From assembly GCA_013360215.1 (NCBI GenBank), contig JABWCP010000020.1:1-57977 (forward strand): DNA of 57,977 bases. The letters run 5' to 3'. Shown piece by piece: positions 6,001-18,406 of the stretch (its first letter is position 1; each line of letters opens with the position of its first letter). This DNA comes from a bacterium (GTDB taxonomy: Bacteria; CLD3; SB21). Both the position numbers and the translations under genes were made by a program. The notes beneath the pieces are model-generated. The model did no database searches. It worked only from the letters and a program-made list of their open reading frames with translations, and was not told the origin of the DNA.

Positions 6001-7285
6001 GCAGTATGTGTGGTATTGGCATAGCGATCATGTACTAAGCAATACTATCGCTGCGGCGGATGCAAATCATGACGGATTTTCCGAACTGTACATCGGTGAT
6101 GGCACGGCTACACGCCGATTTGTTCTACAAGATCTGACCGCCTACGAATTGCCCTCCGCGTTGGCCATATTTCCATCCGATACCGATCGCATTCAAATAC
6201 AATGGCAAATGCGCCCGGGTTTAGATTCGCTGCTCATTTTTCGAGGCACGCATGCAGATACGCTAGCACTTATCGCTACGATCGCGGCTAACGCCGAAGC
6301 ATGGGCCGATTCAGCCGTTCAAAAAAACAAACCGTACTACTACAGAGTGCAAGCGCGCTACGGCAACGCTTCATCCGGTGTATCCGGTCTTTTTTTTGTG
6401 CGCCCCAATCCGAAACCATCGGTTGTGTCGGTCGAAATGTATAATGCCAATTTTATTCGAGCCCGATTTTCTGAACCGATCAACAACGAAAGCCTGAGTC
6501 AGAATTTTCGTTACCTGTTGGATGACCGATATTATCCGGCGAGCGCGATACCTGTCGAAGGCGGACAAGCCGTGATGCTTCACTTTACGCAAGTTGTATC
6601 CGGTTCGCACCGATTGTTTTTTTATTCGCAGCACGATACCGATGGCACGCCATCGGACACCGCCTCCCGTACGTTTTTGTATGACGGAGTTACACCACGC
6701 ACACCTTTGTACGTCGTGCGGGCGACATACGAAGGCCGCAACCGCATTCGTTTGGTTTTTAATAAATCCGTGGACATCGCTACAGCGACACTCACCTCGG
6801 CGTATCGTATGAATTATGATTTTTCAATTGTCTCGGCGAGTATTGTTCCTTTGTCATCCAATACGGAAGTATTTCTGGACGTTGAAGGTAAAAAATATTT
6901 AGGCCCGATCGGTTTAGCTTTTACGATAGACGCACACGGCGTCAAGGACAGCGAAGGATATCCGATTGATTCTGTTTTTGGTTATCGTGCCGGATTATTA
7001 TTCAGCGTTGAAAAATTAGGTGATCCGTTTGTGTATCCTAATCCCCATCGCGCCGATATAGATCCGCCTTATATCACCTTCGCAGGTATTCCCGATAAAA
7101 CCGTGGTACGAATTTATTCTGTTGACGGACGATTTATAAAACAGATTGCCGAAAGCGGAAATGACGGCGGAGTGCGATGGGATTTAAAGGATACGAACGG
7201 CAAGAGAATTTCATCCGGCGTGTATATATATGAAGCGGTCGTGTCGGGAAAGAAAAAGTTAGGAAAGTTTGCTGTCGTACGATAG
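3098..7285 (+). CDS. Secreted S8 subtilisin-like protease with FG-GAP repeats and T9SS/FlgD-like C-terminal domain
   Basis: The 1395-residue protein starts with a signal peptide (about 1-21, ending FSARAQ). The peptidase S8 domain spans about 145-440, with the triad visible as D156 (IIDSG), H232 (GHGTSVAG) and S386 (GTSASAP). A long middle part carries FG-GAP/VCBS-type aspartate-rich repeats such as DMDNDGKPEL, DMDGDGLPEL, DFDHDGHQEI and DFDGDGFPEF, which usually form a calcium-binding propeller. Fibronectin-like segments follow, and the last 85 residues (FVYPNPHRA ... SSGVYIYEAV) match the type A sorting/FlgD-Ig-like domain used by type IX secretion in FCB bacteria. It is probably secreted or surface-bound; the substrate is unknown. 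Its 3' end overlaps the convergent MauE-like gene by 27 bases. Confidence 0.92.
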   Translation: MRYILIAILFFHTVVAFSARAQNASHPSSLIVKFRPKSQLSKTIEDRKAWIQRIQTGTKEPIHIGSASNNNHTFFDDTYIIQLAPNLTSDEINSWIANLSAQSDIEYVTINHLFRLDNVRINDPLADSLYWIQRTAAKKAWALTQGRPGIIIGIIDSGIEYDHPDLTAQIYRNAGEMGTDAWGNDKKSNGIDDDNNGYADDWQGWDFVDAPALAGDGDATDEDNDPSDENGHGTSVAGIAAATGNNKTGVIGMAFGCRVMNLRAGGKSGFLEEDDVARAIVYAADNGARIINCSFGDREYGPLLRDAIRYACDRDVVIVASAGNSSSSALHYPSSFDDVIGVSATAKDDFFAGFSNYGTRIDVAAPGVDILTTATDSGYRFFSGTSASAPLVSGLAALMLSLDSTLSRNDVRATLQQSAEDIGEIGWEPYYGHGRIHAQRALLSIGGTGVAIHYPAQNQGVHGNNISIRITAAGRFMASVRLLIGSGTNPSSWTEVASSENHAFVNDVLTDLDISDYSPGTYSLRLEVTNKDGSLNETVNRFFIDHTAPAISDFVVRPMLYGKYAGYHIQFQTDDLCESYVRLRIAGSSESGFPLPIKTLSQNHSIFISTSDFRGPYEAAIEVINAAGDTAYYDNNGGYYPLNLTQTELPVSAFQIDTSFKMPAAYLYPRSTDMDNDGKPELTVNTYNNAGEFAWLRTYEFSGTSGHPVSLVHDYISNGVPRDIDDSASGGKMRLLAGMGSSTVVYESVNATGLPISRTYKDSNDFWGSRFADMDGDGLPELIGKKGSTYQIRKNTASSWTTWQTLTNPTDGGNLVGVPGSAVGDFDHDGHQEILLGDYDGNIFIYELNGNSAALIWSDSLYGVDANAFLESGDFDGDGFPEFAVGVHSEDPSSESEAVNSYWLWRIYKTTGNNSYTIAWEQYFYGYAPLAQFPSGASSQDINNDQRPDLLLSLYPYAYILTYDASSQQYVWYWHSDHVLSNTIAAADANHDGFSELYIGDGTATRRFVLQDLTAYELPSALAIFPSDTDRIQIQWQMRPGLDSLLIFRGTHADTLALIATIAANAEAWADSAVQKNKPYYYRVQARYGNASSGVSGLFFVRPNPKPSVVSVEMYNANFIRARFSEPINNESLSQNFRYLLDDRYYPASAIPVEGGQAVMLHFTQVVSGSHRLFFYSQHDTDGTPSDTASRTFLYDGVTPRTPLYVVRATYEGRNRIRLVFNKSVDIATATLTSAYRMNYDFSIVSASIVPLSSNTEVFLDVEGKKYLGPIGLAFTIDAHGVKDSEGYPIDSVFGYRAGLLFSVEKLGDPFVYPNPHRADIDPPYITFAGIPDKTVVRIYSVDGRFIKQIAESGNDGGVRWDLKDTNGKRISSGVYIYEAVVSGKKKLGKFAVVR

Positions 7286-7726
7286 ACGTTCTTCTTTTGA
7301 TAATGCCCACCGCGCATACGGCGATATAAAAACATACACCGCGATTATCAGTAAAACACCATCTTCGGCTATTTTTTTCCAACCTATCACTTCATCCGGA
7401 TCATTCACATCAAAGCATCCGCACGGTATAACCAGATCGCGTATGAGCGCTGAGGTGATAGCAAAAATAAATATACTCAAAAGTAGGATGGCCCATCCGG
7501 CGGCCGCGCGAGTCCAATATCCGACCATGAGTGCTATACCGATGAATAACTCCAGCCACGCTAGCCAGACGGCTGAAATCGGTGTCACCACGGCGGGTAA
7601 AATACGATAGCCGTCTATCGCGGCGGCAAAGGCGTATGGCGATGTGATTTTTTCTAAGGCACCATAACAAAATACGATGCCGAGAATTAAACGTAACGCG
7701 GTTTTTATATGACTTTTCCAAGCCAT
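7259..7726 (-). CDS. DoxX/MauE-type redox-associated membrane protein
   Basis: This 155-residue membrane protein has four hydrophobic helices and the early motif LILGIVFCYGALEKITSPYAF, typical of the DoxX/MauE group. It carries a CGCFD motif (Cys-Gly-Cys) between the later helices, as in MauE-like proteins thought to pass electrons across the membrane. I chose the ATG at 7726 (MAWKSHIK) because the longer frame adds 33 residues that only read through the rhodanese gene. That start lies 10 bases after the rhodanese stop, so the two genes are an operon and may act together in thiol or sulfur chemistry. The 3' end runs 27 bases into the convergent subtilase gene. Confidence 0.82.
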   Translation of the reverse strand: MAWKSHIKTALRLILGIVFCYGALEKITSPYAFAAAIDGYRILPAVVTPISAVWLAWLELFIGIALMVGYWTRAAAGWAILLLSIFIFAITSALIRDLVIPCGCFDVNDPDEVIGWKKIAEDGVLLIIAVYVFISPYARWALSKEERLSYDSKLS

Positions 7727-7736
7727 AATTATTTTT

Positions 7737-8249
7737 TTATTCAGGGTTAGTGCTGCGTTTTTTTTCTTCGATCGGATAACCGGCAGTACGCCATTCTTCC
7801 ATACCGCCGGTAAAAACAAAAACATTGGTAAAACCCATTTCGATCAACTGCATGGCGAGACGGCCGGCCTGATCACAGCGCGGGCCGCCGCAATAGGTTA
7901 TCAATGTTTTGTTTTTTTCCCATTCTTTGACTATGGGCAGTTCCTTTGCGCGGCTATAATAGCACGACACGGCGTCCTGGATATGAGCCAATTTGAAAAT
8001 CGCTTCCTGGCGCGCGTCCACAAATAATCCGGCTTTGGTTTTAAAAAGCGTATAGGCTTCGTCCAGTGACAGTCTTTGCAACTTGGATGCATCCTGACGC
8101 GGCATACGCATATAAGTTTTCGAATGGTCGCGGCGTATCAATTTATCCCATGCGAAACCACTGCTGTGCCATTGATTAAATGCAATGCCGACTGACAAAC
8201 TGGAAATCGCGAGGATCATCATACGAAAAAGAGTGGAACGGAAATGCAT
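7737..8249 (-). CDS. Exported rhodanese-like domain protein
   Basis: The 170-residue protein begins with a hydrophobic segment (about 9-24), probably a signal anchor, so the domain should face the periplasm. Residues 58-160 form a single rhodanese domain: LSLDEAYTLFK, LFVDAR, the active-site loop YCGGPRCDQA with C120 as the likely catalytic cysteine, and VFTGGMEEW before the C-terminal helix. Such domains carry persulfide sulfur; a second cysteine (C125) sits inside the loop, which is unusual. The ATG at 8249 is preceded by GGGAGG at about seven bases. The binding site overlaps the base of a possible hairpin at 8260-8312. The MauE-like gene follows immediately. Confidence 0.85.
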   Translation of the reverse strand: MHFRSTLFRMMILAISSLSVGIAFNQWHSSGFAWDKLIRRDHSKTYMRMPRQDASKLQRLSLDEAYTLFKTKAGLFVDARQEAIFKLAHIQDAVSCYYSRAKELPIVKEWEKNKTLITYCGGPRCDQAGRLAMQLIEMGFTNVFVFTGGMEEWRTAGYPIEEKKRSTNPE

Positions 8250-8416
8250 AGGTTGGCCTCCCGCAGTTATGAACTAATGTACGCGAGCGTTTGTACATTG
8301 GCAAGTTGCGGGATGAAGAAAATATACTAGGACAGAGCATTAGTTGATCCGCTATCTTGTCCCATTCGACACGAGTTCACAAATTATCGGGTTATTGGTC
8401 GGCTTATTTTTGAGCT
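8250..8416. other. Gap between defence operon and rhodanese gene
   Basis: No gene is visible. The stretch holds the leader hairpin described at 8260-8312 and a weaker inverted repeat (GGACA at about 8331 with TGTCC at about 8362). It is the downstream edge of the defence operon; I found no copy here of the tRNA-Ser 3' ends that could mark an integration site. Confidence 0.4.
8260..8312 (-). promoter_or_regulatory. Leader hairpin covering the rhodanese ribosome binding site
   Basis: In the transcript of the rhodanese gene, CCCGCA (at 8307-8312) can pair with TGCGGG (at 8260-8265), and an inner stem of seven perfect pairs (8276-8282 with 8293-8299) closes a ten-base loop. The outer 3' arm runs directly into the Shine-Dalgarno GGGAGG, so pairing would hide part of it. 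There is no T tract, so it is not a standard terminator. A translational switch or thermosensor is an inference. Confidence 0.4.
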
Positions 8417-11395
8417 CTACGATATTTCCTCACTCTCCCACCACTTGAAGGGCTTTTCGTCTGTGACCTGCCGGTAGTCAACGCCGATGATCTTGAAATG
8501 CTTCTTGGCGCAATCGATCTTACGCTTTTCGTTCTTAAATTGAAGAAGGTTCGGGTCCATGTTTCCTTTGGTTTCACGAACCAACTGCAACTTGTACTTT
8601 CCGTCTTCCGAAAGCCTAATGATACCCCAATCGGGATTATAGTTTCCGATGATCTTAGGAAGTCCGATTTTGAAGTTGCCCGGGAACTTGAAATAGCAAA
8701 GGATCTTGCCGTACTCGTCATCGGGCATCACGCGGTTTTCGACAAAACGTCGTTCCACGTCCGAATCAAACTGTATCACGTCGTAAAGCGAAGTCTTCGT
8801 TCCGTTCATCAGTTCTTTTTGAACATATTTTTTGGTTGGAGGAAATATCTCGTCGATGCTTTCGTTTTGTGGGGCGTTATTCACGGCGTATTCAATGTTT
8901 CCCGCAATATGGTCAGCGAGCATATCGCGAATGATGGTAATGAATACTCCGGCGAATCCTTCCGGATTCCTGAAAATCAATTTCTTCTTTGCCTCTTTCA
9001 TCTGTTTGAAGATTTCTAATATCGTATGTCTCGTCAACGTCGTTTCCTTGGCGGCACGATCGATCAGATTGAATACGGGATACGTCGTCTCCGCTTCCCG
9101 GACAGTCTTCTCATCAATGTGTTGACCTTCGGTAGAATCCCACGCGATAGGCTGAGCTCTGGTTAACTTTTGTCCGTTGTCGAATTCTACGGACGAATCC
9201 GATCCTTCCTGAATGATCTTCAGAATCTTAAAGCCCCTCAGTCTTTCGTCTTTGGCCAGTTTTGACAAATCATCGCGCACATCAAAATAGCGTGACGCCG
9301 TTGTCTTTTGCCCTCTCGTATCGGAAATGTCAATTTCGATCTTGGCCAATTTGACTTTCACTTCCAGAAGCTTTAAACAAATGTGTGTAATTACAAACTT
9401 CCCCTTTGTGATGGAGATCCGCGGTTCTGGAAAGTCGGCGTAATTCAGTTTGGTGACACATTGTTCGATGAGTTCTTTCGTGTTCACCTTTATATCGTAC
9501 GAAGTTCGGCGTGAGAGTTTTTCCCAGAATTCACGAAATTCTTTGCTTCTGTAAATCTTGTCGTTTCGTTTGGCCAAACCGTGGCGGGCATTGGAGGGGG
9601 ACGGAGGCACCGCATCCCCGCTTTCGCGATACTCCATCTGCAAATTGCTGACGTAGTTCTCATAACTCTCATTGGCGACGACGGTCAGGATATTCACGGA
9701 TTCGTCCTGAATTCGCTCTCCGGTCTGATCGACGCACAATCGCAATCCTCGCCCGATTTCCTGCCGCTTCTTCATTTCCGACTGCGTATTATTCAACGTA
9801 CATATCTGGAATACATTCGGATTATCCCAGCCTTCTTTGAGAGCCGAATGGGCAAAGATAAAACAAACCTTCTCGTCGAAAGACAAGAGGCGTTCTTTGT
9901 CCTTCATGATCAGTTCATACGCCGCCTTCTCAAGTTCTTTTTCTTCTTTCGTTTTCTTTTCTTCTTCAATGGAAGTATCTACGACGATTTCTTCGCCTTT
10001 CTTCGTCGCCTTCTTCGCAAAATAAGCCTGCCTCACGTCTTCGGGCTTCAGATTTTCGAAAAAGGAATTTCCTTTTCGTAAACGATGGAACGCTTTATCA
10101 AACAAAAGCCGTATCAAACCATTTTCTTCTGTATAATTGGCGACTCGGTCGATAAAAAACAGCGTCAAAACCTTGATTTTTTTGTTGGCAAGTTCCGCCT
10201 GCCTTTGCATGTGTTGCTTGATCGTCTCTTCGATCTGAATTCGGAAAATCTCCTCTCTGGAAAGATTAACTTCACCGGGTTCATTCAGCAGGAGGCGCTG
10301 GCCGTTCGAGAAAACGACCACGCCGTTCTTCTTGTCGATCTCATCGACAACGATCCCTCTATGCGATTCGTTTTTCGTTTTTCGGAAAAGATCATCGTCC
10401 TTCTCGACTTCCAATTCTTTCTCGCGCTTCAGACCTTTTTCAATGATCATCAAACGCAATTTAGCCTTCAGGCCGGAACTGTATCGTATGGATTGCAATG
10501 CCAGCGACGTCTGCCCCTCATTCAGATTCTCCTCTTCACGAATACCGTAAACCTGAATCCGTTTCACGAGGTTCATCTTAAAGGCATCCACCGGGCTCAG
10601 ACGATAGATCAGGTTCGGTTTCTCTACCGGCGTCGCGCTGTATCGAAGCGCAAAAAGAGGATGCAAAGTCCGCAAAGCTTCTTTTGACTTCTGGCTCAGG
10701 TAATTCTGGGCTTCGTCCAGTATCAGGATGGGCCGCGTTTCCTGAATGTATTGGTACGGACGCCATTCACCGGGCAATTTCTCCGTCGGCTTGAAGATGA
10801 CATTGCTTGATTTATTAAATGAATCGACCGTGATGATCAGGATTTCCGTGAAAGACGACGTCGCAAAGCCTCGCAGTTTGCTGATCTGCTGGCCGTCGTA
10901 TTCGATGAGGTGAACGGTTTCATTGCTGTAGAGCGTCTTGAAGTGCTCCCGCGTGATCTGGAAGGACTTGATGACGCCTTCGTAGATGGCGATGCTGGGA
11001 ACGACGATGACGAACTTACGGAAACCGAAGTTTTTACGGAGCTCATGAATGGTCCGAAGATAGGCGTACGTCTTACCCGTGCCCGTCTCCATCTCGATGG
11101 TGAAAGACGGATAACGCCAGGAATCAGAGCCGACACCATCAAGAACGAGCCCCTCATCCACGTCAAGCGTCATATTCCGAGGAACTTCATTGCTATTTTG
11201 AATAGCGACAAGATTATCGAAAACGAAAGATTCGTCGAGCGCATGCCCTTCCGGCATATTCGGCACGACATCGGCGCCCATCTGAAAACCATTGGCGTGA
11301 TCGGAAAGCCCGTCGAAAAGCTTCAAGACACTATCAACGGCCGTCTTCTGATGCGACTGATTGGGATCAAATTTGAAACGAATGAGATTGGACAT
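8417..11395 (-). CDS. res: Type III restriction enzyme, Res subunit (helicase-nuclease)
   Basis: The 992-residue protein is the DNA-translocating and cutting subunit of a type III restriction-modification system. Visible helicase parts are Walker A ETGTGKT (103-109), the DEAQ box (227-230), SATPVEKPN (motif III region) and the arginine-finger motif REIGRGLRL. The C-terminal nuclease shows PDWGIIRL followed by RETKG, matching PD-(D/E)XK as in EcoP15I Res. Length is normal for the family (about 900-1000). The ATG lies five bases after the RhuM-Fic stop, and the cognate methylase is two genes upstream in the same operon. All motifs look intact, so it should be active if Mod supplies a recognition site. 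Confidence 0.93.
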   Translation of the reverse strand: MSNLIRFKFDPNQSHQKTAVDSVLKLFDGLSDHANGFQMGADVVPNMPEGHALDESFVFDNLVAIQNSNEVPRNMTLDVDEGLVLDGVGSDSWRYPSFTIEMETGTGKTYAYLRTIHELRKNFGFRKFVIVVPSIAIYEGVIKSFQITREHFKTLYSNETVHLIEYDGQQISKLRGFATSSFTEILIITVDSFNKSSNVIFKPTEKLPGEWRPYQYIQETRPILILDEAQNYLSQKSKEALRTLHPLFALRYSATPVEKPNLIYRLSPVDAFKMNLVKRIQVYGIREEENLNEGQTSLALQSIRYSSGLKAKLRLMIIEKGLKREKELEVEKDDDLFRKTKNESHRGIVVDEIDKKNGVVVFSNGQRLLLNEPGEVNLSREEIFRIQIEETIKQHMQRQAELANKKIKVLTLFFIDRVANYTEENGLIRLLFDKAFHRLRKGNSFFENLKPEDVRQAYFAKKATKKGEEIVVDTSIEEEKKTKEEKELEKAAYELIMKDKERLLSFDEKVCFIFAHSALKEGWDNPNVFQICTLNNTQSEMKKRQEIGRGLRLCVDQTGERIQDESVNILTVVANESYENYVSNLQMEYRESGDAVPPSPSNARHGLAKRNDKIYRSKEFREFWEKLSRRTSYDIKVNTKELIEQCVTKLNYADFPEPRISITKGKFVITHICLKLLEVKVKLAKIEIDISDTRGQKTTASRYFDVRDDLSKLAKDERLRGFKILKIIQEGSDSSVEFDNGQKLTRAQPIAWDSTEGQHIDEKTVREAETTYPVFNLIDRAAKETTLTRHTILEIFKQMKEAKKKLIFRNPEGFAGVFITIIRDMLADHIAGNIEYAVNNAPQNESIDEIFPPTKKYVQKELMNGTKTSLYDVIQFDSDVERRFVENRVMPDDEYGKILCYFKFPGNFKIGLPKIIGNYNPDWGIIRLSEDGKYKLQLVRETKGNMDPNLLQFKNEKRKIDCAKKHFKIIGVDYRQVTDEKPFKWWESEEIS

Positions 11396-11400
11396 GCGTC

Positions 11401-12423
11401 TTACTGGTTGATGAGATTGATGATGAGTGTGATCATGATATCTTTCTGGGATGGGTCGCTTTGAGCGACAAGGAGGGCCAGCGCCACCAGCGCGTTGTCA
11501 TTGATCTTTTGTTCACCGGATTTACGCAGCAAATGCATATTCCGATTCAGGAACCAGACAAACAAAAACGACCCGATGCGTTTATTGCCGTCGATAAAAG
11601 GATGGTTCTTGATCACAAAGTAGAGCAGGTGTGCGGCTTGCTCTTCGATGCTCGGATATAAATACTTTCCGTCAAAGGTCTGAACGACACTGCCGAGAAT
11701 TCCTTTAAAGCTATCGTCTTTTTCACGCCCAAAAAGATCCGATGCGTCTTTGGCGGCGAGCAGGGAATTCTTCAATTCGTCAATGGCAGACCGGGCTTCG
11801 TCATAACGTAAGACAAACGTAATCTGCCGATGGACGTCGTCAGCAGCAAGGGTTTGTTTGTCAAATTGGTTGAGAAGTGTGAATGTGCGGGTGTAGCCGG
11901 TCAGTACTTCCAAAAGGCCCCGAGCTTCCTGAAGTTTCAGATCGGTCTCTTTAGCGGACCGCTGTATCAGGTCAATCGCCTTCTGGAGCTCGGCCATATT
12001 CTTTGCCTGATCCTTAAGCCTTTGCTCATTAAGCGTATACCCGCGTAGAATATGCTCCTTGAGTACACGATTTGCCCAGATTCGAAACTGAGTCGCTTTT
12101 CTGGAATTGACTCGATAGCCTACAGAAATTATCATGTCAAGGCTGTAAAAGGCAACCTCTCGTTTCACTCGTCTCCGGCCTTCGGATTGAACTATTTCCA
12201 TTTTGGAAATAGTTGCTCCAGGCTTCAATTCTCCCGAAGAAATAATGTTTCTTATATGTTTATTAATTGCCGGAACTTCTGTGCCGAAAACATCGGCAAT
12301 CTGACTTTGTGTCAGCCAGATAGTCTCGTCACGGTATGTGATTTCGACCTCACGGGAACTGTCTGAGTCCCGATAGAAAACGATTTCACCGCTTTTATTG
12401 AGATTGATGACTTTATCTTTCAT
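11401..12423 (-). CDS. RhuM-Fic fusion protein (RhuM DNA-binding-like N-terminus, Fic/Doc C-terminus)
   Basis: The 340-residue protein has a RhuM-type N-terminal half (ETIWLTQSQIADVFG at about 33-47, INKHIRNI, SLDMIISVGYRVNS, FRIWANRVLKEHILRGY), a predicted coiled or helical linker with LKDQAKNMAELQKAIDLIQ, and a Fic domain ending with HPFIDGNKR at 273-281. The Fic motif keeps the catalytic histidine. The GNK instead of GNG is closer to Doc, which phosphorylates EF-Tu, than to standard AMP transferases, so the chemistry is open. It sits between mod and res with gaps of 11 and 5 bases and must be co-expressed with them. No separate antitoxin is visible. Similar RhuM/Fic fusions are known near restriction genes; their role there is not settled. 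Confidence 0.85.
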   Translation of the reverse strand: MKDKVINLNKSGEIVFYRDSDSSREVEITYRDETIWLTQSQIADVFGTEVPAINKHIRNIISSGELKPGATISKMEIVQSEGRRRVKREVAFYSLDMIISVGYRVNSRKATQFRIWANRVLKEHILRGYTLNEQRLKDQAKNMAELQKAIDLIQRSAKETDLKLQEARGLLEVLTGYTRTFTLLNQFDKQTLAADDVHRQITFVLRYDEARSAIDELKNSLLAAKDASDLFGREKDDSFKGILGSVVQTFDGKYLYPSIEEQAAHLLYFVIKNHPFIDGNKRIGSFLFVWFLNRNMHLLRKSGEQKINDNALVALALLVAQSDPSQKDIMITLIINLINQ

Positions 12424-12434
12424 AATATCTTACT

Positions 12435-14294
12435 TTATATCGTCTTCAAAACACCCATATCGGACAACCTCACCTTATCCGAGTCCGATATGGCGCTGTC
12501 GAGGCAAATGAAAACATCTTTCTCATCCAACTTAATTTCTTCAATGGTGTCCTTATACACTTTGTTATCTAAGCACACTAGCAACTTGTGGTCGCAGAAA
12601 TCGGACAAAATTTCATAAATTTTATTCTTTCTGTACCTTTTTAAAACGTCAATTTTACTATCAAGAGAAAAACCTTCAATCAAGATAATTTCAAGTATAA
12701 GATTTTCAGGTTCCCAGTTATCCAATAACGGAGTTTCAAAACCTAAAAACGTTTTCTCAAGACTCAACATGTCAGAAGGAATAAATTCAGACCATGATCT
12801 AAAATTTGACTCTACTAGCCTTAAACAATGAAAGCCCAGATCGTTATCTTTCTTCTTTGCTAGTTTCTTAAACTGTTGACTACTTTTCTTAATTCTTTCA
12901 ATAGCCAAATCAGAAATAGTCTGACAGTGTGACTTTTTCCTTATATCATCATCATCAATTTCCTCGGGCATTTGGACTAGAATATATCTTCTCTTTCCAT
13001 TATCCTCATTATTTAGACTCATTAGAGCGTGAGCAGAGGTTCCAGAGCCTGCAAAAAAATCCAAATAGATACCATCTTTGTCATCAGTATTGTTAACCAT
13101 AATTGAAAACAAAAACTTTACGAGGTCTGACGGTTTGGGAAAATCAAAAGCATCGAATCCAAATAATTCTCGAATTTCTTTAGTTCCATCTTGATTAAAT
13201 GGACCAGATACCATAAGCGACAGAGGCTTCCCTTTTCTCATATTTCCGTTTTCATCTCGAAGGTATTGTTTAAAGCGTACGCTAAATTTCCCGTCAGATT
13301 CATTGATTACAATTTCGTCATTATCCATGGCCTTTAGAAGTCTTTCCTTCGACCAAATCCACTGTTTATCTGGCCAAATCTCTTTTCCTTTCCATTTTAA
13401 CGGATAGACTAAATTAGGCCTGTCATCTTTGCTTTTTGTTGCCAATGGTTGCGTAACGTAGCCACCACGGGTTTCATACTTGTTATCTTTGTTCTTGTAT
13501 TGTTCAATTTCTTCTGGTGATAGATTTGAGCTCAGTTCATCAATATTTGATTTGGAATAGCAAAGTATATATTCATGAAGCCGTCCTATTCCTTTTGTCT
13601 GCGCTCCTGGTCCATACTTATTCTTCCAGACAATTTGTGATTGAAACTGTTCTTCACCAAAAAGTTCATTCAATATTGTTCGTAAATTTGTGATCTCATT
13701 ATCATCAATACTAACAAAAATCAAACCATCATCCCTTAACAAATTTCGAGCAAGCCTCAATCTGGGATACATCATACTGAGCCATTTCGAGTGAAAGCGG
13801 CCGTCGGCGCGCGTATTTGTCGTCATTGGCTTTCCTTCTTCGTCTACTTGTCCGGTCCGGCGCAGGTATTCTTCCAGAGGTTCTTTGAAGTCGTCTTCAT
13901 AGACGAAGTCGTTGCCCGTATTATACGGCGGATCGATGTAGATCATCTTGATACGCCCGGCGTAGCTTTTCTGGAGGATCTTGAGGACTTCGAGGTTTTC
14001 GCCTTCGATGAAGATATTGCGGGTGGTTTCTTCGTCCACGCCTTCGCCGGGACACGGGATGAGTGTGCCCTTGCTGGGAATGGAAGCGAGTTTACGGGCT
14101 TCTTTCTTGCCGGGCCAGAAGAGGCCGAAGTGTTCGACCTCCGGATTGTCTTCTTCCGTGTAGTTACCGAGCGCTTCTTTGAGCGTCTCCCAGTTGATCT
14201 TCCCGTCGGCAAAGGCCTCGGGCGCGATTTGTTTTAGTTGCTTGATTCGTTCTTCATCGAAGACGAATCCGGGTCGTAGTCTTTCGTGAGGCAT
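12435..14294 (-). CDS. mod: Type III DNA methyltransferase, Mod subunit
   Basis: The 619-residue protein shows the catalytic DPPYNTG motif (121-127) before the AdoMet-binding DFFAGSGT (412-419), the order of beta-class amino-methyltransferases such as type III Mod. Between them lies the variable region expected to recognise DNA. It should methylate adenine and give Res its specificity. The base composition changes sharply inside the gene: about 50-60% GC up to residue 170 or so (13,780-14,294) but about 25-30% in much of 12,600-13,740. The gene starts 33 bases after the nuclease gene and ends 11 bases before the RhuM-Fic gene. The reading frame is intact. Confidence 0.93.
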   Translation of the reverse strand: MPHERLRPGFVFDEERIKQLKQIAPEAFADGKINWETLKEALGNYTEEDNPEVEHFGLFWPGKKEARKLASIPSKGTLIPCPGEGVDEETTRNIFIEGENLEVLKILQKSYAGRIKMIYIDPPYNTGNDFVYEDDFKEPLEEYLRRTGQVDEEGKPMTTNTRADGRFHSKWLSMMYPRLRLARNLLRDDGLIFVSIDDNEITNLRTILNELFGEEQFQSQIVWKNKYGPGAQTKGIGRLHEYILCYSKSNIDELSSNLSPEEIEQYKNKDNKYETRGGYVTQPLATKSKDDRPNLVYPLKWKGKEIWPDKQWIWSKERLLKAMDNDEIVINESDGKFSVRFKQYLRDENGNMRKGKPLSLMVSGPFNQDGTKEIRELFGFDAFDFPKPSDLVKFLFSIMVNNTDDKDGIYLDFFAGSGTSAHALMSLNNEDNGKRRYILVQMPEEIDDDDIRKKSHCQTISDLAIERIKKSSQQFKKLAKKKDNDLGFHCLRLVESNFRSWSEFIPSDMLSLEKTFLGFETPLLDNWEPENLILEIILIEGFSLDSKIDVLKRYRKNKIYEILSDFCDHKLLVCLDNKVYKDTIEEIKLDEKDVFICLDSAISDSDKVRLSDMGVLKTI

Positions 14295-14327: not shown

Positions 14328-15170
14328 CTATTCTGCTATTTCCGGTATGGATTCCGGCGGCGGCGAAGCCTGCAGATTGGCATTGATGAATTCTTCCTGT
14401 TCCACATCGTCGGCGATCTGATTGAGATATTTCTTGAAATGCGATGCGCTGCGCCCGCCGGTGCTCAGCACATATTCGCGATACGAAGAACAGGAGAATC
14501 GTGCATCACAGTTACGACATACCCGTGTCGCAAAAAGCGACTTCGTGCCGGGGATTGGCTCTTTTAGCACTTTCAGTTTTGGCGGTTCAAATTCCTTTCC
14601 CTCGATCTGATCGACGACACGTCCGAAGTCCGTGATGGTCTCTTTGACGTTCTGCTGTTTGAACGGAATAGGTATTAAAGGTTGCCATGCCGCCAATTCG
14701 CGTTCGATGGCGCTCAGATTGCCGGTATTGAGCGCATTGCGGAGCGTCACAGGATAGGCCGTCGAGATGACGGCGGTATGGTCAAGCGGATTGCCGCGGA
14801 GTTCCTGCCAGATGTGGGCATAGACATTGAGTTGCTTTTCGTAGAAATCCATATTGCCGCGGATGTAGTCGGGATCGTGCGTCTTGATGTCATACATCCA
14901 CGTCTCACCTTCCTCTTTGACGATATCCACGACGCCTTCGATGGTAAATTCACGTCCTTTGGGCGTTTTCTGGTCCGGCAGTGTCAGCTTGACTTCCGTA
15001 GATGTGACTTTGGAGGCCACATCTTTGAGTTTTCTGAAATAGTAGAGAACCTGATTGAGAGCGTATTCTTTGCTGTCCGCGGTCAGTGCATGGCCGCCTT
15101 CCATCGCCAGCATCTCGTGATTCTCTTCGAAAAATTCCTTTATTTTTTCTTCAATCTCTTGATCGGTCAT
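14328..15170 (-). CDS. PD-(D/E)XK nuclease with AddB-like C-x2-C-x5-C; second part of a split helicase-nuclease
   Basis: This 280-residue protein carries the core of a RecB/AddB/Cas4-type nuclease: TEVKL (E59), EGVVDIV (D82), YDIKTH (D94, K96) and a QLNVYAHIW helix. Near the end is C218-x2-C221-x5-C227, the same spacing as the last three Fe-S cysteines of AddB. The first cysteine and the opening GxxxH element of such domains are absent here; both occur at the very end of the helicase encoded just upstream. The start ATG overlaps the helicase stop as ATGA, so translation is probably coupled. It may be a stand-alone partner that completes its cluster with the helicase, or one half of a broken gene. 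No frame disruption is visible inside it. Confidence 0.82.
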   Translation of the reverse strand: MTDQEIEEKIKEFFEENHEMLAMEGGHALTADSKEYALNQVLYYFRKLKDVASKVTSTEVKLTLPDQKTPKGREFTIEGVVDIVKEEGETWMYDIKTHDPDYIRGNMDFYEKQLNVYAHIWQELRGNPLDHTAVISTAYPVTLRNALNTGNLSAIERELAAWQPLIPIPFKQQNVKETITDFGRVVDQIEGKEFEPPKLKVLKEPIPGTKSLFATRVCRNCDARFSCSSYREYVLSTGGRSASHFKKYLNQIADDVEQEEFINANLQASPPPESIPEIAE

Positions 15171-17737
15171 ACTTTTTGACTTTCTCTCTGCTGGATCAGA
15201 AAATAATGAAGATCTTCAATCGTCTTATGAACAAGACTTCCGAAAAACATCGTCTGGGAACGGGAAGGAACAAATCCGTATTTTCGAAATACCATATATT
15301 GTCTTGGACACTTCTGGAACAGAAGATAATCTCCCGTGTATGAATAAACTTTTCCGAGGTCCTCGTGGTCATCCACAGCTTGCGGTAGGGCTTTGATGTC
15401 GATTTCTTTAAGCGTCGGGAGGCGGTCTTCGGCAAAAATTTCTTTAAAGACCGGAGATGCTCCTTTTGTTCCTTTGTATCTTGGGATGATGAGCAGGTTC
15501 TTAGGCCTGGACAAAGCGACATAAAAGGTTCGCATGTTGTCAAAAACGCTGATTCGGTCAAGAGGCTCGCCTTCCTTTTTCAGGCATTCGCGAACAATGT
15601 GTTCTACCTGGGAAGCTTTCCTTTCCGTTTTGAATACGCTTCCCAGGACAACCACCGGAAATTCAAGGCCCTTAGCCTGATGGATGGTAAGAAAAGGAAT
15701 GCGCCCTTTTGGAAAGGGATCATCGGCATCTTCGTATTCCGACTCGCCAAGACGAAAGAGCGCATAGAGATAACTCGTAAAGAAACTATTTACGAACTTC
15801 TTCTCTGAAAGATAACCGGCCGTAATGACCGTCGCATATTTTTCCATGAAGCGGGCAAGATACTGCGAGATCAGGCCAAGATTGCAGATCGGACCCTCGT
15901 CGGAGCCCCGCTCTGCCAGATCGAACATCTTTCTAAAATGCTTGAAACCGCAAAGTTGGTAGAAAAGATCGAGAACGGACCAGTCAACTGAAGTCATGCG
16001 GTTGAAGATGTATTGGACCGGGAAGGGTTGTTTTGCTACTTCACGTTTCTTGATAATATTCTCAAAAGCCTTGCTTTGTATGATTTTTCGAGCCCGTTCA
16101 GACAATGTTCCGATCCTCAGGATATCACGCACCATCGGGTCCCACTTGAACTCGGTTTTCAAATCAATCTTTTTTCGTTTGGCATAATTCATCAGCGCAT
16201 CGTAGTCAGCACCGATCAGATCAAGTTCTTTTTGTTTGTCTTTGACGTATTCTTTCAAGGCATCGTCAGACTTCATCAGTTCTTCTGCCTTCGATTCATA
16301 GGCGTCGATTAAAACAAAAAAATTTGCCAGGTTTCCCCGCCTTTGGGTTCTTTCCGGACGGCCCAGTATTTTTGCGAATAGGCCGAACATGGCCACCGCT
16401 TCTTCTACTTCAACAAAAGTCCCCGCACGGGGCGCATAGACAGACAGGCCGACGTTTTCCAATGCCGCTTTTAGTCCTGCTGCTTTTTTGGTTTTTAGAG
16501 AAGGAAAAAGAAATGCGATCTGATTGGGGTCGGAAACCCTCTTCGATGTGATCAATTTTTTCGTAAAGGCCGCGATTTCTTCATAGACAAGTTCTGGTTC
16601 CAGAAAGGAACTCACGGCGACCGAGGGTTCTTTATCCGTACTTTTAGCTTTGATCTTCTTATCTGCAATACGGTGAAATCCTTTGCCATCGTCCTTTTTC
16701 CAGTCATTGCGATCCATGAAACTGGTATAGAAATCGACAATTCGTTTGCGAGACCTGTAGTTAATATCCAGATCTATTCGACGAGGCTTTGCTTTGATAT
16801 AACTTTTGCAGCGCTCTTCAAACTCGACAAAATTTTCAACCGTCGCTCCGCGAAACCGGTAAAGCGCCTGATCATCGTCACCTACGATGCAGATATTCTG
16901 ACTTCCCTTGGCAAGATGAAAATAGATTTTTTCCTGGATCGCATTCGTGTCCTGGTATTCATCGATGATCACGTGCCTGAAGATTTTGTGACCATTTTCG
17001 GATTTGGTAAGAGACTCATACGCGGCCTGTTGAAGCAGAGAAAAATCAGTGGATCTGATTTTTCTGTTGGCCCCCAAAGAATTCAGATAATAATCATACA
17101 TTTTTGATATTTGGATCAGGCTCTCATCCTTTGTCCTCAAATGTGCCGGACGCACTAGTTCCTCCGACATACGATTGAAGAAACTTATCGCATTAGTGGT
17201 CGCCTCGTGTCGGGAGCCGTTATTCCCGTTCTTGAGATAGAGATTCACAGCCCTATTGGCGTCCTCAATTTCCTTGAAGCCTGCATGTTTAATCATTTCA
17301 GGCCAATGCTCACGATACACATGAAAATACTGATCCAGTTCGTCGAGAAGGACAGGCGGATGGGCACGATGTCCGTCATTCGAAAGCCGCCTATCTGAAA
17401 TGAGTTTTTGACAAATGGAATGCACGGTTCCGATAGACATCTTTGAGATATCGTAAGGCTTCCCGGTCTTGTTTGTCACCAATCCGAGTAGAGCGATGAG
17501 GCCTTCTTTGAGTTGAAAAGCCGCTTTTTCGGTAAAGGTGCTTAAGAAGATTTCCTGAGGATCGACTTGATGGAATACGATCAGATTCAACGTTCGCCAC
17601 AAAAGCACCCTTGTCTTGCCTGACCCCGGACCGGCCGCCAGAAACAATGGTCCGTCAACATACAAGATAGCCTCCCGCTGACTATCGTTAGGCTTGAAAT
17701 CTTTCATTTTCCAGAGTTCTTCGATTGACAGAGACAT
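15167..17737 (-). CDS. UvrD/Rep-type superfamily 1 helicase with truncated nuclease-domain start
   Basis: The 856-residue protein has a complete set of SF1A helicase motifs: Walker A AAGPGSGKT (34-42), DEYQDTN (259-265), VGDDDQALYRFRGA (285-298), the motif V-like TIHQAKGLEFPVVV, and a late ALSRPKNLL. After the helicase core comes YTGDYLLFQKCPRQY (C810) and GSLVHKTIEDLH (833-844), which is how a RecB/AddB-type nuclease domain begins; the protein then ends 12 residues later, before any catalytic residue. The remainder of that domain is encoded by the next gene, which overlaps by four bases. It heads the defence operon. No clear ribosome binding site precedes the ATG at 17737, so the start is less certain than the rest. 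Confidence 0.88.
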   Translation of the reverse strand: MSLSIEELWKMKDFKPNDSQREAILYVDGPLFLAAGPGSGKTRVLLWRTLNLIVFHQVDPQEIFLSTFTEKAAFQLKEGLIALLGLVTNKTGKPYDISKMSIGTVHSICQKLISDRRLSNDGHRAHPPVLLDELDQYFHVYREHWPEMIKHAGFKEIEDANRAVNLYLKNGNNGSRHEATTNAISFFNRMSEELVRPAHLRTKDESLIQISKMYDYYLNSLGANRKIRSTDFSLLQQAAYESLTKSENGHKIFRHVIIDEYQDTNAIQEKIYFHLAKGSQNICIVGDDDQALYRFRGATVENFVEFEERCKSYIKAKPRRIDLDINYRSRKRIVDFYTSFMDRNDWKKDDGKGFHRIADKKIKAKSTDKEPSVAVSSFLEPELVYEEIAAFTKKLITSKRVSDPNQIAFLFPSLKTKKAAGLKAALENVGLSVYAPRAGTFVEVEEAVAMFGLFAKILGRPERTQRRGNLANFFVLIDAYESKAEELMKSDDALKEYVKDKQKELDLIGADYDALMNYAKRKKIDLKTEFKWDPMVRDILRIGTLSERARKIIQSKAFENIIKKREVAKQPFPVQYIFNRMTSVDWSVLDLFYQLCGFKHFRKMFDLAERGSDEGPICNLGLISQYLARFMEKYATVITAGYLSEKKFVNSFFTSYLYALFRLGESEYEDADDPFPKGRIPFLTIHQAKGLEFPVVVLGSVFKTERKASQVEHIVRECLKKEGEPLDRISVFDNMRTFYVALSRPKNLLIIPRYKGTKGASPVFKEIFAEDRLPTLKEIDIKALPQAVDDHEDLGKVYSYTGDYLLFQKCPRQYMVFRKYGFVPSRSQTMFFGSLVHKTIEDLHYFLIQQRESQKV

Positions 17738-18083
17738 CGTTTAGAATAAAATTGATCGCTATGATTTGTGTAAAAACGTAATGCGCTTAGAATCAAATGT
17801 CAATAGATTTGGACGGTGTATAACATAAGCGCTGCACACACGGCAACCGCCAGAACTGTCTTTTACGTTAAATGCACTTCGCTCAAATATTGTTTTTTCG
17901 CATGTTGTCTTTTTTTTGAATTCAACTTCGAGACGATTATTCTCAATTGTATGACGCTGTTATTCAGTTCTATATCATTCTACTGCATTTAATGGATATT
18001 AATGAGCGATAGACTTGTTTAAGGTGTTTATTCGCAAGAACAAAGAGTTAAATTTTGGAGTTTCACATCTACTCCCTCAACAA
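17738..18083. other. Non-coding upstream region of the defence operon
   Basis: About 345 bases without a convincing gene lie between the operon's first start codon and the tRNA terminator. The promoter of the operon should be here but I cannot place it. A short GC-rich block at about 17,814-17,853, with AGCGCT and GGCAACCGCC, stands out from its AT-rich surroundings and looks unlike either neighbour. Confidence 0.4.
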
Positions 18084-18110
18084 AAAAAGCTCAGATTACT
18101 CTGAGCTTTT
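18083..18110 (-). terminator. Rho-independent terminator after tRNA-Ser(GCU)
   Basis: On the minus strand, AAAGCTCAG and CTGAGCTTT form a nine-pair stem around a six-base loop, followed by a run of T. It starts a few bases after the 3' end of the tRNA-Ser(GCU), so it probably ends that transcript. Confidence 0.8.
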
Positions 18111-18111
18111 G

Positions 18112-18202
18112 CGGAGAAGGGGAGATTCGAACTCCCGATACGGCTTTACAACCGTATGGCGGTTTAGCAAACCGCTGCCTTAAGCCACTCGGCCACCTCT
18201 CC
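18112..18202 (-). tRNA. tRNA-Ser (anticodon GCU)
   Basis: Read on the minus strand, the 91-base sequence folds as a long-variable-arm tRNA. The acceptor stem GGAGAGG pairs with CTTCTCC (one G-U), the discriminator is G, the anticodon loop is TTTGCTAA-like with GCT in the centre, and the variable arm has a strong stem (ATACGG with CCGTAT). The T loop is TTCGAAT. The long variable arm and the anticodon agree on serine, reading AGC/AGU. CCA is not encoded. Confidence 0.93.
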
Positions 18203-18239
18203 CAATGCATTCGTATATGGATCACATCCAAAAGAACAG

Positions 18240-18322
18240 CGGAGGATGAGGGACTCGAACCCCCAAGTCCTTTCGGACGGCAGTTTTCAAGACTGCTGAC
18301 TTACCAATTAGCCTAATCCTCC
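18240..18322 (-). tRNA. tRNA-Ser (anticodon UGA)
   Basis: The 83-base minus-strand sequence has a perfect acceptor stem (GGAGGAT with ATCCTCC), discriminator G, anticodon stem GCAGT/ACTGC around CTTGAAA (anticodon TGA), a variable arm GTCC-GAAA-GGAC and T loop TTCGAGT. The extra arm marks it as type II, and the anticodon reads UCA (serine). It is rather short for a serine tRNA, and the D stem is only three pairs. CCA is not encoded. It lies 37 bases upstream of the other tRNA-Ser, probably in one transcript. Confidence 0.9.
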
Positions 18323-18406
18323 ATTCCAAAAAGGCCATTTACCTACCGTCTTAAAAACGGGACGCAATATAGGTGAAACCATCATTGCAGTCAACTATTT
18401 ATTCGC

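Follow-up and report, generated by a model that had tools for sequence, protein, structure and literature searches.

The closest described relatives of the locus analysed here are UvrD-Cas4-like fusions (pfam12705), which lie beside the Mod and Res genes of type III restriction systems and have been described as a likely defence component (Hudaiberdiev et al. 2017, PMC5704561). In the passages found there, separate UvrD and Cas4-like genes appear merely as an independent, non-defence case, and a nuclease domain divided between two genes is not mentioned. The four-cysteine domain concerned is of the iron-staple type found in AddB, Cas4, and Dna2 (PMC3466216, PMC7430649). We found no description of a divided iron-staple domain in the open-access literature; supplements were outside the scope of this search and a prior mention is possible. 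Like that fusion (PMC5704561), our locus, near Mod and Res, combines a UvrD-type SF1 helicase with a Cas4-like iron-staple nuclease that follows it; unlike the fusion, which is one polypeptide, it encodes two, and the break lies within the nuclease domain. The evidence below makes it very likely that the pair represents a conserved form of the UvrD-Cas4-like helicase-nuclease that is encoded by two genes, that arose by one ancient fission and in which coupled chains jointly build one nuclease alongside Mod/Res.

The pair lies on the reverse strand of the window, i.e. the entire 57,977-nt stretch of DNA that was analysed, as do all other protein-coding features for which coordinates in the window are given. 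The helicase (15167..17737; 856 amino acids) is identified by trees and by matches to the UvrD-type N- and C-terminal Pfam domains (PF00580, E 2.1e-53; PF13361, E 2.8e-17), after which FQKCPRQY...FFGSLVHKTIEDLH runs up to the stop codon. Its residues 797-856 (15170..15349) are the opening part of an iron-staple PD-(D/E)XK domain, based on PF12705 positions 9-50, the alignment to fused homologues and invariant residues, and comprise the helices carrying C810 (codon 15308..15310), the predicted first metal ligand, and the FGSLVHKTIED motif with H837 (codon 15227..15229), the predicted histidine of nuclease motif I. The small nuclease chain (14328..15170; 280 amino acids) starts with the helix that follows the last one of the helicase in the same domain and supplies the remainder of it, including the predicted catalytic residues (14883..14996) E59 (14994-14996), D82 (14925-14927), D94 (14889-14891) and K96 (14883-14885), and C218-x2-C221-x5-C227 (14490..14519), the predicted last three metal ligands. 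The two genes share the four bases ATGA (15167..15170): the nuclease start codon ATG occupies 15170-15168 and the helicase stop codon TGA 15169-15167. An earlier sequence-only reading had described both open reading frames and this overlap exactly so; it had also read the helicase tail correctly as FQKCPRQY (C810) plus GSLVHKTIEDLH, the stretch in which H837 lies, had located E59, D82, D94-x-K96 and the three cysteines in the small protein, and was right that this protein has no fourth cysteine.

To place the pair among its relatives, 84,980 species genomes were scanned, yielding 225 confirmed relatives; the 80 best of these were retained. The scan relied on one peptide pattern upstream of the junction, which introduces no bias towards split or fused forms but misses members without the pattern. 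Among these best 80 of 225, the 24 closest relatives (44-64% identity) are all split, at the same place as the window pair. The phyla given in their record titles are Ignavibacteriota, Bacteroidota, Kryptoniota, Cyanobacteriota, Chloroflexota, Bacillota, Fibrobacterota, Omnitrophota, and Spirochaetota, about ten phyla being represented in all; nine of the 24 are named isolates and the remainder are mostly metagenome-assembled. The possibility raised beforehand that close homologues would all prove fused is thus contradicted, only a distant sister group (~30% identity) being fused. The sequence-only reading had also proposed looking for the same ATGA split in other genomes, and here the place of the split recurred in 24/24 while the ATGA itself is not universal at the junctions. 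The genome and viral scans contributed a further 70 loci; in 68 of them, helicase tail and nuclease share one open reading frame (three of these frames are shortened on the N-terminal side), and the remaining two are broken at other places in the helicase. Fused members were found on viral contigs. Within the split clade, the scan, which was not exhaustive, revealed no fused member, and no member of this clade was among the matches listed for plasmid and phage collections, where the homologues (~25-36% identity) are fused or broken mid-helicase. In eight other genomes of the window's class and phylum, no copy was found.

Two fused-type helicase-nucleases, on an Enterococcus plasmid (L006, 5266-8164) and a Peribacillus plasmid (L002, 6773-10537), are broken mid-helicase; these breaks look like ordinary frameshifts, unlike the conserved split. 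A viral contig (L116, IMG/VR 3300030606_000448, 6001-11556) encodes a split-type nuclease core with Mod and Res but without a helicase match; the frame upstream of the core resembles, by eye, an S8-peptidase-type protein, and the locus is rearranged or chimaeric.

The plasmid and phage homologues are single proteins of ~960 amino acids that combine a UvrD-type helicase with a C...C-x2-C-x5-C nuclease and are mostly followed by mod and res genes. These fused homologues show that the nuclease domain was originally in one piece. In a tree rooted with Escherichia coli UvrD and the window genome's own PcrA, all split members group in a single clade (SH-aLRT 100) nested within the fused family, and one change of state suffices to account for the split. 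Of note, this tree was obtained by a quick search with long outgroup branches, and support for the deeper placement was only 80-86; a single long-branched archaeal member (L016) adjoins the split clade and its placement is unsure. When helicase and nuclease parts are analysed in separate trees, the same clean division between split and fused members is recovered (SH-aLRT 100 each), and split and fused helicases together form one group against UvrD/PcrA (SH-aLRT 100). We suggest that a single gene broke once in the ancestor of the clade, in the loop between the helix with the motif I histidine and the rest of the domain. Because the window and the 24 relatives have two open reading frames in place of helicase and nuclease in one polypeptide, they represent a split variant of the UvrD-Cas4-like family rather than members of the fusion.

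Of the 247 positions of PF12705 (PDDEXK_1), only 71 to 246 are matched by the small protein (E 7.5e-7) and only 9 to 50 by the helicase tail (E 0.0022, under the family cut-off), while reading through the in-frame TAA of the relative L018 gives one match from 9 to 246 (E 8.7e-16). A PF12705 domain with PD-(D/E)XK motifs and four cysteines is thus obtained only when both chains are combined. The end-to-end alignment with fused helicase-nucleases that had been proposed was carried out: together the two window chains cover the whole domain with no part missing, and they are separated in the loop that follows the FGxLVHxTIED helix. In all 25 members the iron-staple pattern C...C-x2-C-x5-C and the nuclease motifs are present and distributed over two chains, with C810 and H837 on the helicase chain and E59, D82, D94, K96, C218, C221, and C227 on the small chain invariant (25/25). 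The invariance of these nine residues, together with the identical place of the split in 25/25, excludes chance. In the fused homologues of alignment A1, H837 and the cysteine aligned with C810 are invariant as well. The sequence-only reading had called the domain AddB-like, which is apt for its type (iron-staple, of the Cas4/AddB/Dna2 group) but not for the protein, which belongs to the UvrD-Cas4-like family; membership in AddB was rejected in the absence of an AddB model among the NCBIfam matches. CRISPR Cas4 was also considered and rejected, as the L018 read-through scored 16.8 bits with TIGR00372, whose cut-off is 65, and the window nuclease gave no match.

For structure prediction, the two chains were treated as one and taken from L018, not from the window pair; AlphaFold was given the read-through domain as a single chain, together with an alignment that combined fused members with split chains left unaltered. 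The resulting domain model is confident (pLDDT 90.4, pTM 0.85) and places the break at residue 60, in the loop between helices 30-55 and 63-85. Its nearest solved folds, all with modest TM-scores, are AddAB, AdnAB, and the Cas4-family ACE1 (TM 0.54 by query for AddB 3u44_B). The full-length read-through model (pLDDT 87, pTM 0.86) is nearest to UvrD, AddA, and RecB. A sequence search of the PDB gave no convincing solved relative.

In the proposed arrangement, the small chain would fold onto the C-terminal helices of the helicase to give one PD-(D/E)XK domain, to which the helicase chain would contribute the first cysteine and the motif I histidine, and the small chain the aspartate, the Asp-x-Lys and the last three cysteines. 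One cysteine from the helicase and three from the small chain may then bind the metal, lock the nuclease and staple the chains together. Two separate proteins thus probably must join for one working nuclease, physical assembly and nuclease activity both being inferred. On balance, we favour the further idea that a metal cluster with ligands from two genes, itself an inference, acts as an obligatory inter-subunit staple and assembly checkpoint, so that the active site would exist only after the coupled chains have assembled. In a single-chain relative, change of any of the four cysteines renders the protein insoluble (PMC3466216), which fits a staple that would be essential between the chains. 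The identity of the metal is the point at which an alternative survives best: the split domain could assemble while its four cysteines hold zinc or another cluster rather than 4Fe-4S. Zinc occupies this site in the related DUF3799 nuclease (PMC3466216), PF12684 weakly matches the helicase tail, and some Cas4 proteins contain 2Fe-2S (PMC5704561); yet AddB, the Dna2-like Bad, and the Cas4 protein Sso0001 share the cysteine pattern and are iron-sulfur proteins (PMC3466216, PMC7430649), and we regard a different metal as unlikely but not negligible.

We also considered that the two proteins work apart, the small chain being a free-standing nuclease and the helicase tail a relic. Both genes are complete and could be expressed at different levels. 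However, the cysteine, the histidine and the surrounding residues of the tail are conserved in 24-25 of the 25 members, and the 62-codon tail has a dN of 0.05-0.12 compared with 0.09-0.20 for the C-terminal 780 codons of the helicase in the same seven pairs, lying under the helicase average in each of them (7/7). Because NG86 dS values were near or beyond saturation, no omega values are claimed. The small chain, moreover, contains no more than three cysteines, and its PF12705 match is missing positions 1-70. Independent function of the two proteins is therefore improbable.

The junction between the genes varies among members in its letters, which include ATGA, TGATG/TAATG, an in-frame TAA or TAG followed by ATG, and overlaps of 8-20 nt. 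With the nuclease start codon assigned by script as the one closest to the helicase stop, the overlap is 1 nt in nine of the 25 pairs, 4 nt in seven, 8 nt in four, 11 nt in one and 20 nt in one; two pairs abut with an in-frame stop (L018, TAA-ATG; L019, TAG-ATG) and one pair is 1 nt apart. The step between the frames is -1 in 16 members, 0 (stop codon between) in two and +1 in seven. An ATG or GTG start lies within ~20 nt of the helicase stop in every member and no gene intervenes between helicase and nuclease in any of the 25, in contrast to the distance from nuclease to Mod, which reaches 0.4-2 kb in six of the 21 loci with a measurable Mod start. A core resembling a Shine-Dalgarno sequence upstream of the nuclease start, inside the helicase gene, is clear in only 12/25, and translational coupling is consequently inferred from the gene geometry. 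We suggest that the halves have since the fission been kept touching or overlapping, and that a ribosome ending the helicase would probably reinitiate at once on the nuclease start; judged from the junctions alone, repeated re-tuning of the stop-start junction under selection for closeness can explain the variety.

The same junctions bear on programmed ribosomal frameshifting or stop read-through, by which some fused helicase-nuclease would be made beside the short form. The window junction adjoins a run of five A (CAAAAAG) and the -1 shift noted in the sequence-only reading does join its two frames, and in L018 and L019 an in-frame stop directly precedes the ATG. The -1 step, however, holds for the window and not as a general rule: the occurrence of -1, 0 and +1 steps in sister sequences excludes one shared programmed frameshift, and a common signal was also rejected on the differing junction letters. 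Given, in addition, the nearby start codon in every member and helicase tails that vary in length and sequence beyond the last helix, recoding appears improbable. Finally, a sequencing or assembly error or a recent frameshift, such as a missing A in CAAAAAG, with the real gene being fused or a pseudogene, would fit the adjoining five-A run and the -1 step but is refuted for the family by the conserved split, which recurs with differing junction letters and frames in 24 relatives (nine of them named isolates) from ~ten phyla; neither chain has lost any motif, and such an error can be dismissed for practical purposes.

Downstream of the pair, the same operon encodes a type III Mod methyltransferase (12435..14294; PF01555; PADLOC MTase_III, E 1.6e-170), a RhuM-Fic protein (11401..12423; PADLOC candidate PDC-S23) with a RhuM N-terminal and a Fic/DOC C-terminal part, and a type III Res restriction subunit (8417..11395; PF04851, PF19778; PADLOC REase_III, E 4.9e-184). 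A Mod with an N6/N4 methylase domain and a Res with helicase and endonuclease domains meet the definition of a type III restriction-modification system. The RhuM-Fic protein, which lies between Mod and Res, is not matched at any locus of the 24 split relatives, and Mod and/or Res like those of the window are present in 21 of these. Mod and Res of split members are 38-54% and 43-59% identical, respectively, to those of the window, unlike most fused members, which have Blastomonas-like Mod/Res. In Thermoactinomyces mirandus (L019, 5067-13512), the split pair lies not beside Mod/Res but beside a BREX-like set (DUF6079, DNA methylase, PglZ), and in L032 it lies beside HsdM; the partnership with Mod/Res is thus not strict. 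Because Mod and Res divide in the same way as split and fused members, and because the pair accompanies other methylation-based defence in these two loci, we infer that the pair travels as a unit. Additional genes were seen in two loci, namely a GmrSD-like protein between nuclease and Mod (L031, 10016-11980) and a PIF1-like helicase between Mod and Res (L027, 5786-7228).

Upstream of the operon are tRNA-Ser (GCT) and tRNA-Ser (TGA) genes (window 18075-18371). Two relatives in the same family (L135 and L136) retain the Mrp gene together with the tRNA-Ser pair, and in one of them (L135, genome G006) a type I restriction system lies on the same side, beyond tRNA-Ser(GCT); the site therefore appears to be a changing defence locus or hotspot. 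In L136 (genome G004), the 3' part of tRNA-Ser(GCT) occurs a second time as a 77-bp copy (10185-10261) that resembles an attachment-site repeat. The window itself was searched for a repeat of this kind derived from the upstream tRNA-Ser, without result.

With respect to function, the SF1 motor, 3'-5' by family, would unwind DNA and feed it to the reassembled nuclease. The Mod/Res partner genes suggest, as the most likely task, degradation of DNA that they recognise or cut, and a role in defence is inferred on this basis. Enzyme domains are usually regarded as gene units that cannot be broken. A study for finding frameshifts takes as its working assumption that a conserved domain is not divided between two genes (PMC3711429), and under this assumption split pairs like that in the window can be classed as errors. 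In the present case, a domain that is both catalytic and metal-binding has apparently been divided once, has spread through ~ten phyla and has been kept. The uncharacterised UvrD-Cas4 component of type III restriction systems thereby gains a defined branch encoded by two genes. Should the cluster link the two chains, the pair would be a natural split nuclease with an activity testable by assembly and a clean system for studying how overlapping genes promote subunit assembly; gene fission would then have turned a structural cluster into an assembly checkpoint of a restriction-associated nuclease.

Among better-known enzymes, the pair resembles AddB of AddAB in the four-cysteine staple across the domain with C-x2-C-x5-C at its end; unlike AddB, the window helicase is UvrD/PcrA-like and its nuclease domain is in two chains. 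The Bad/Dna2 helicase-nucleases also join an iron-staple nuclease to an SF1 helicase but differ in having an N-terminal nuclease, an SF1B 5'-3' motor and a single chain (PMC7430649). As a defence complex of a nuclease and a helicase component, the putative assembly is comparable to Hachiman HamAB and Gabija. In Hachiman HamAB and Gabija, as far as the available descriptions extend, nuclease and helicase are separate whole proteins, whereas the two proteins of the window pair share one domain.
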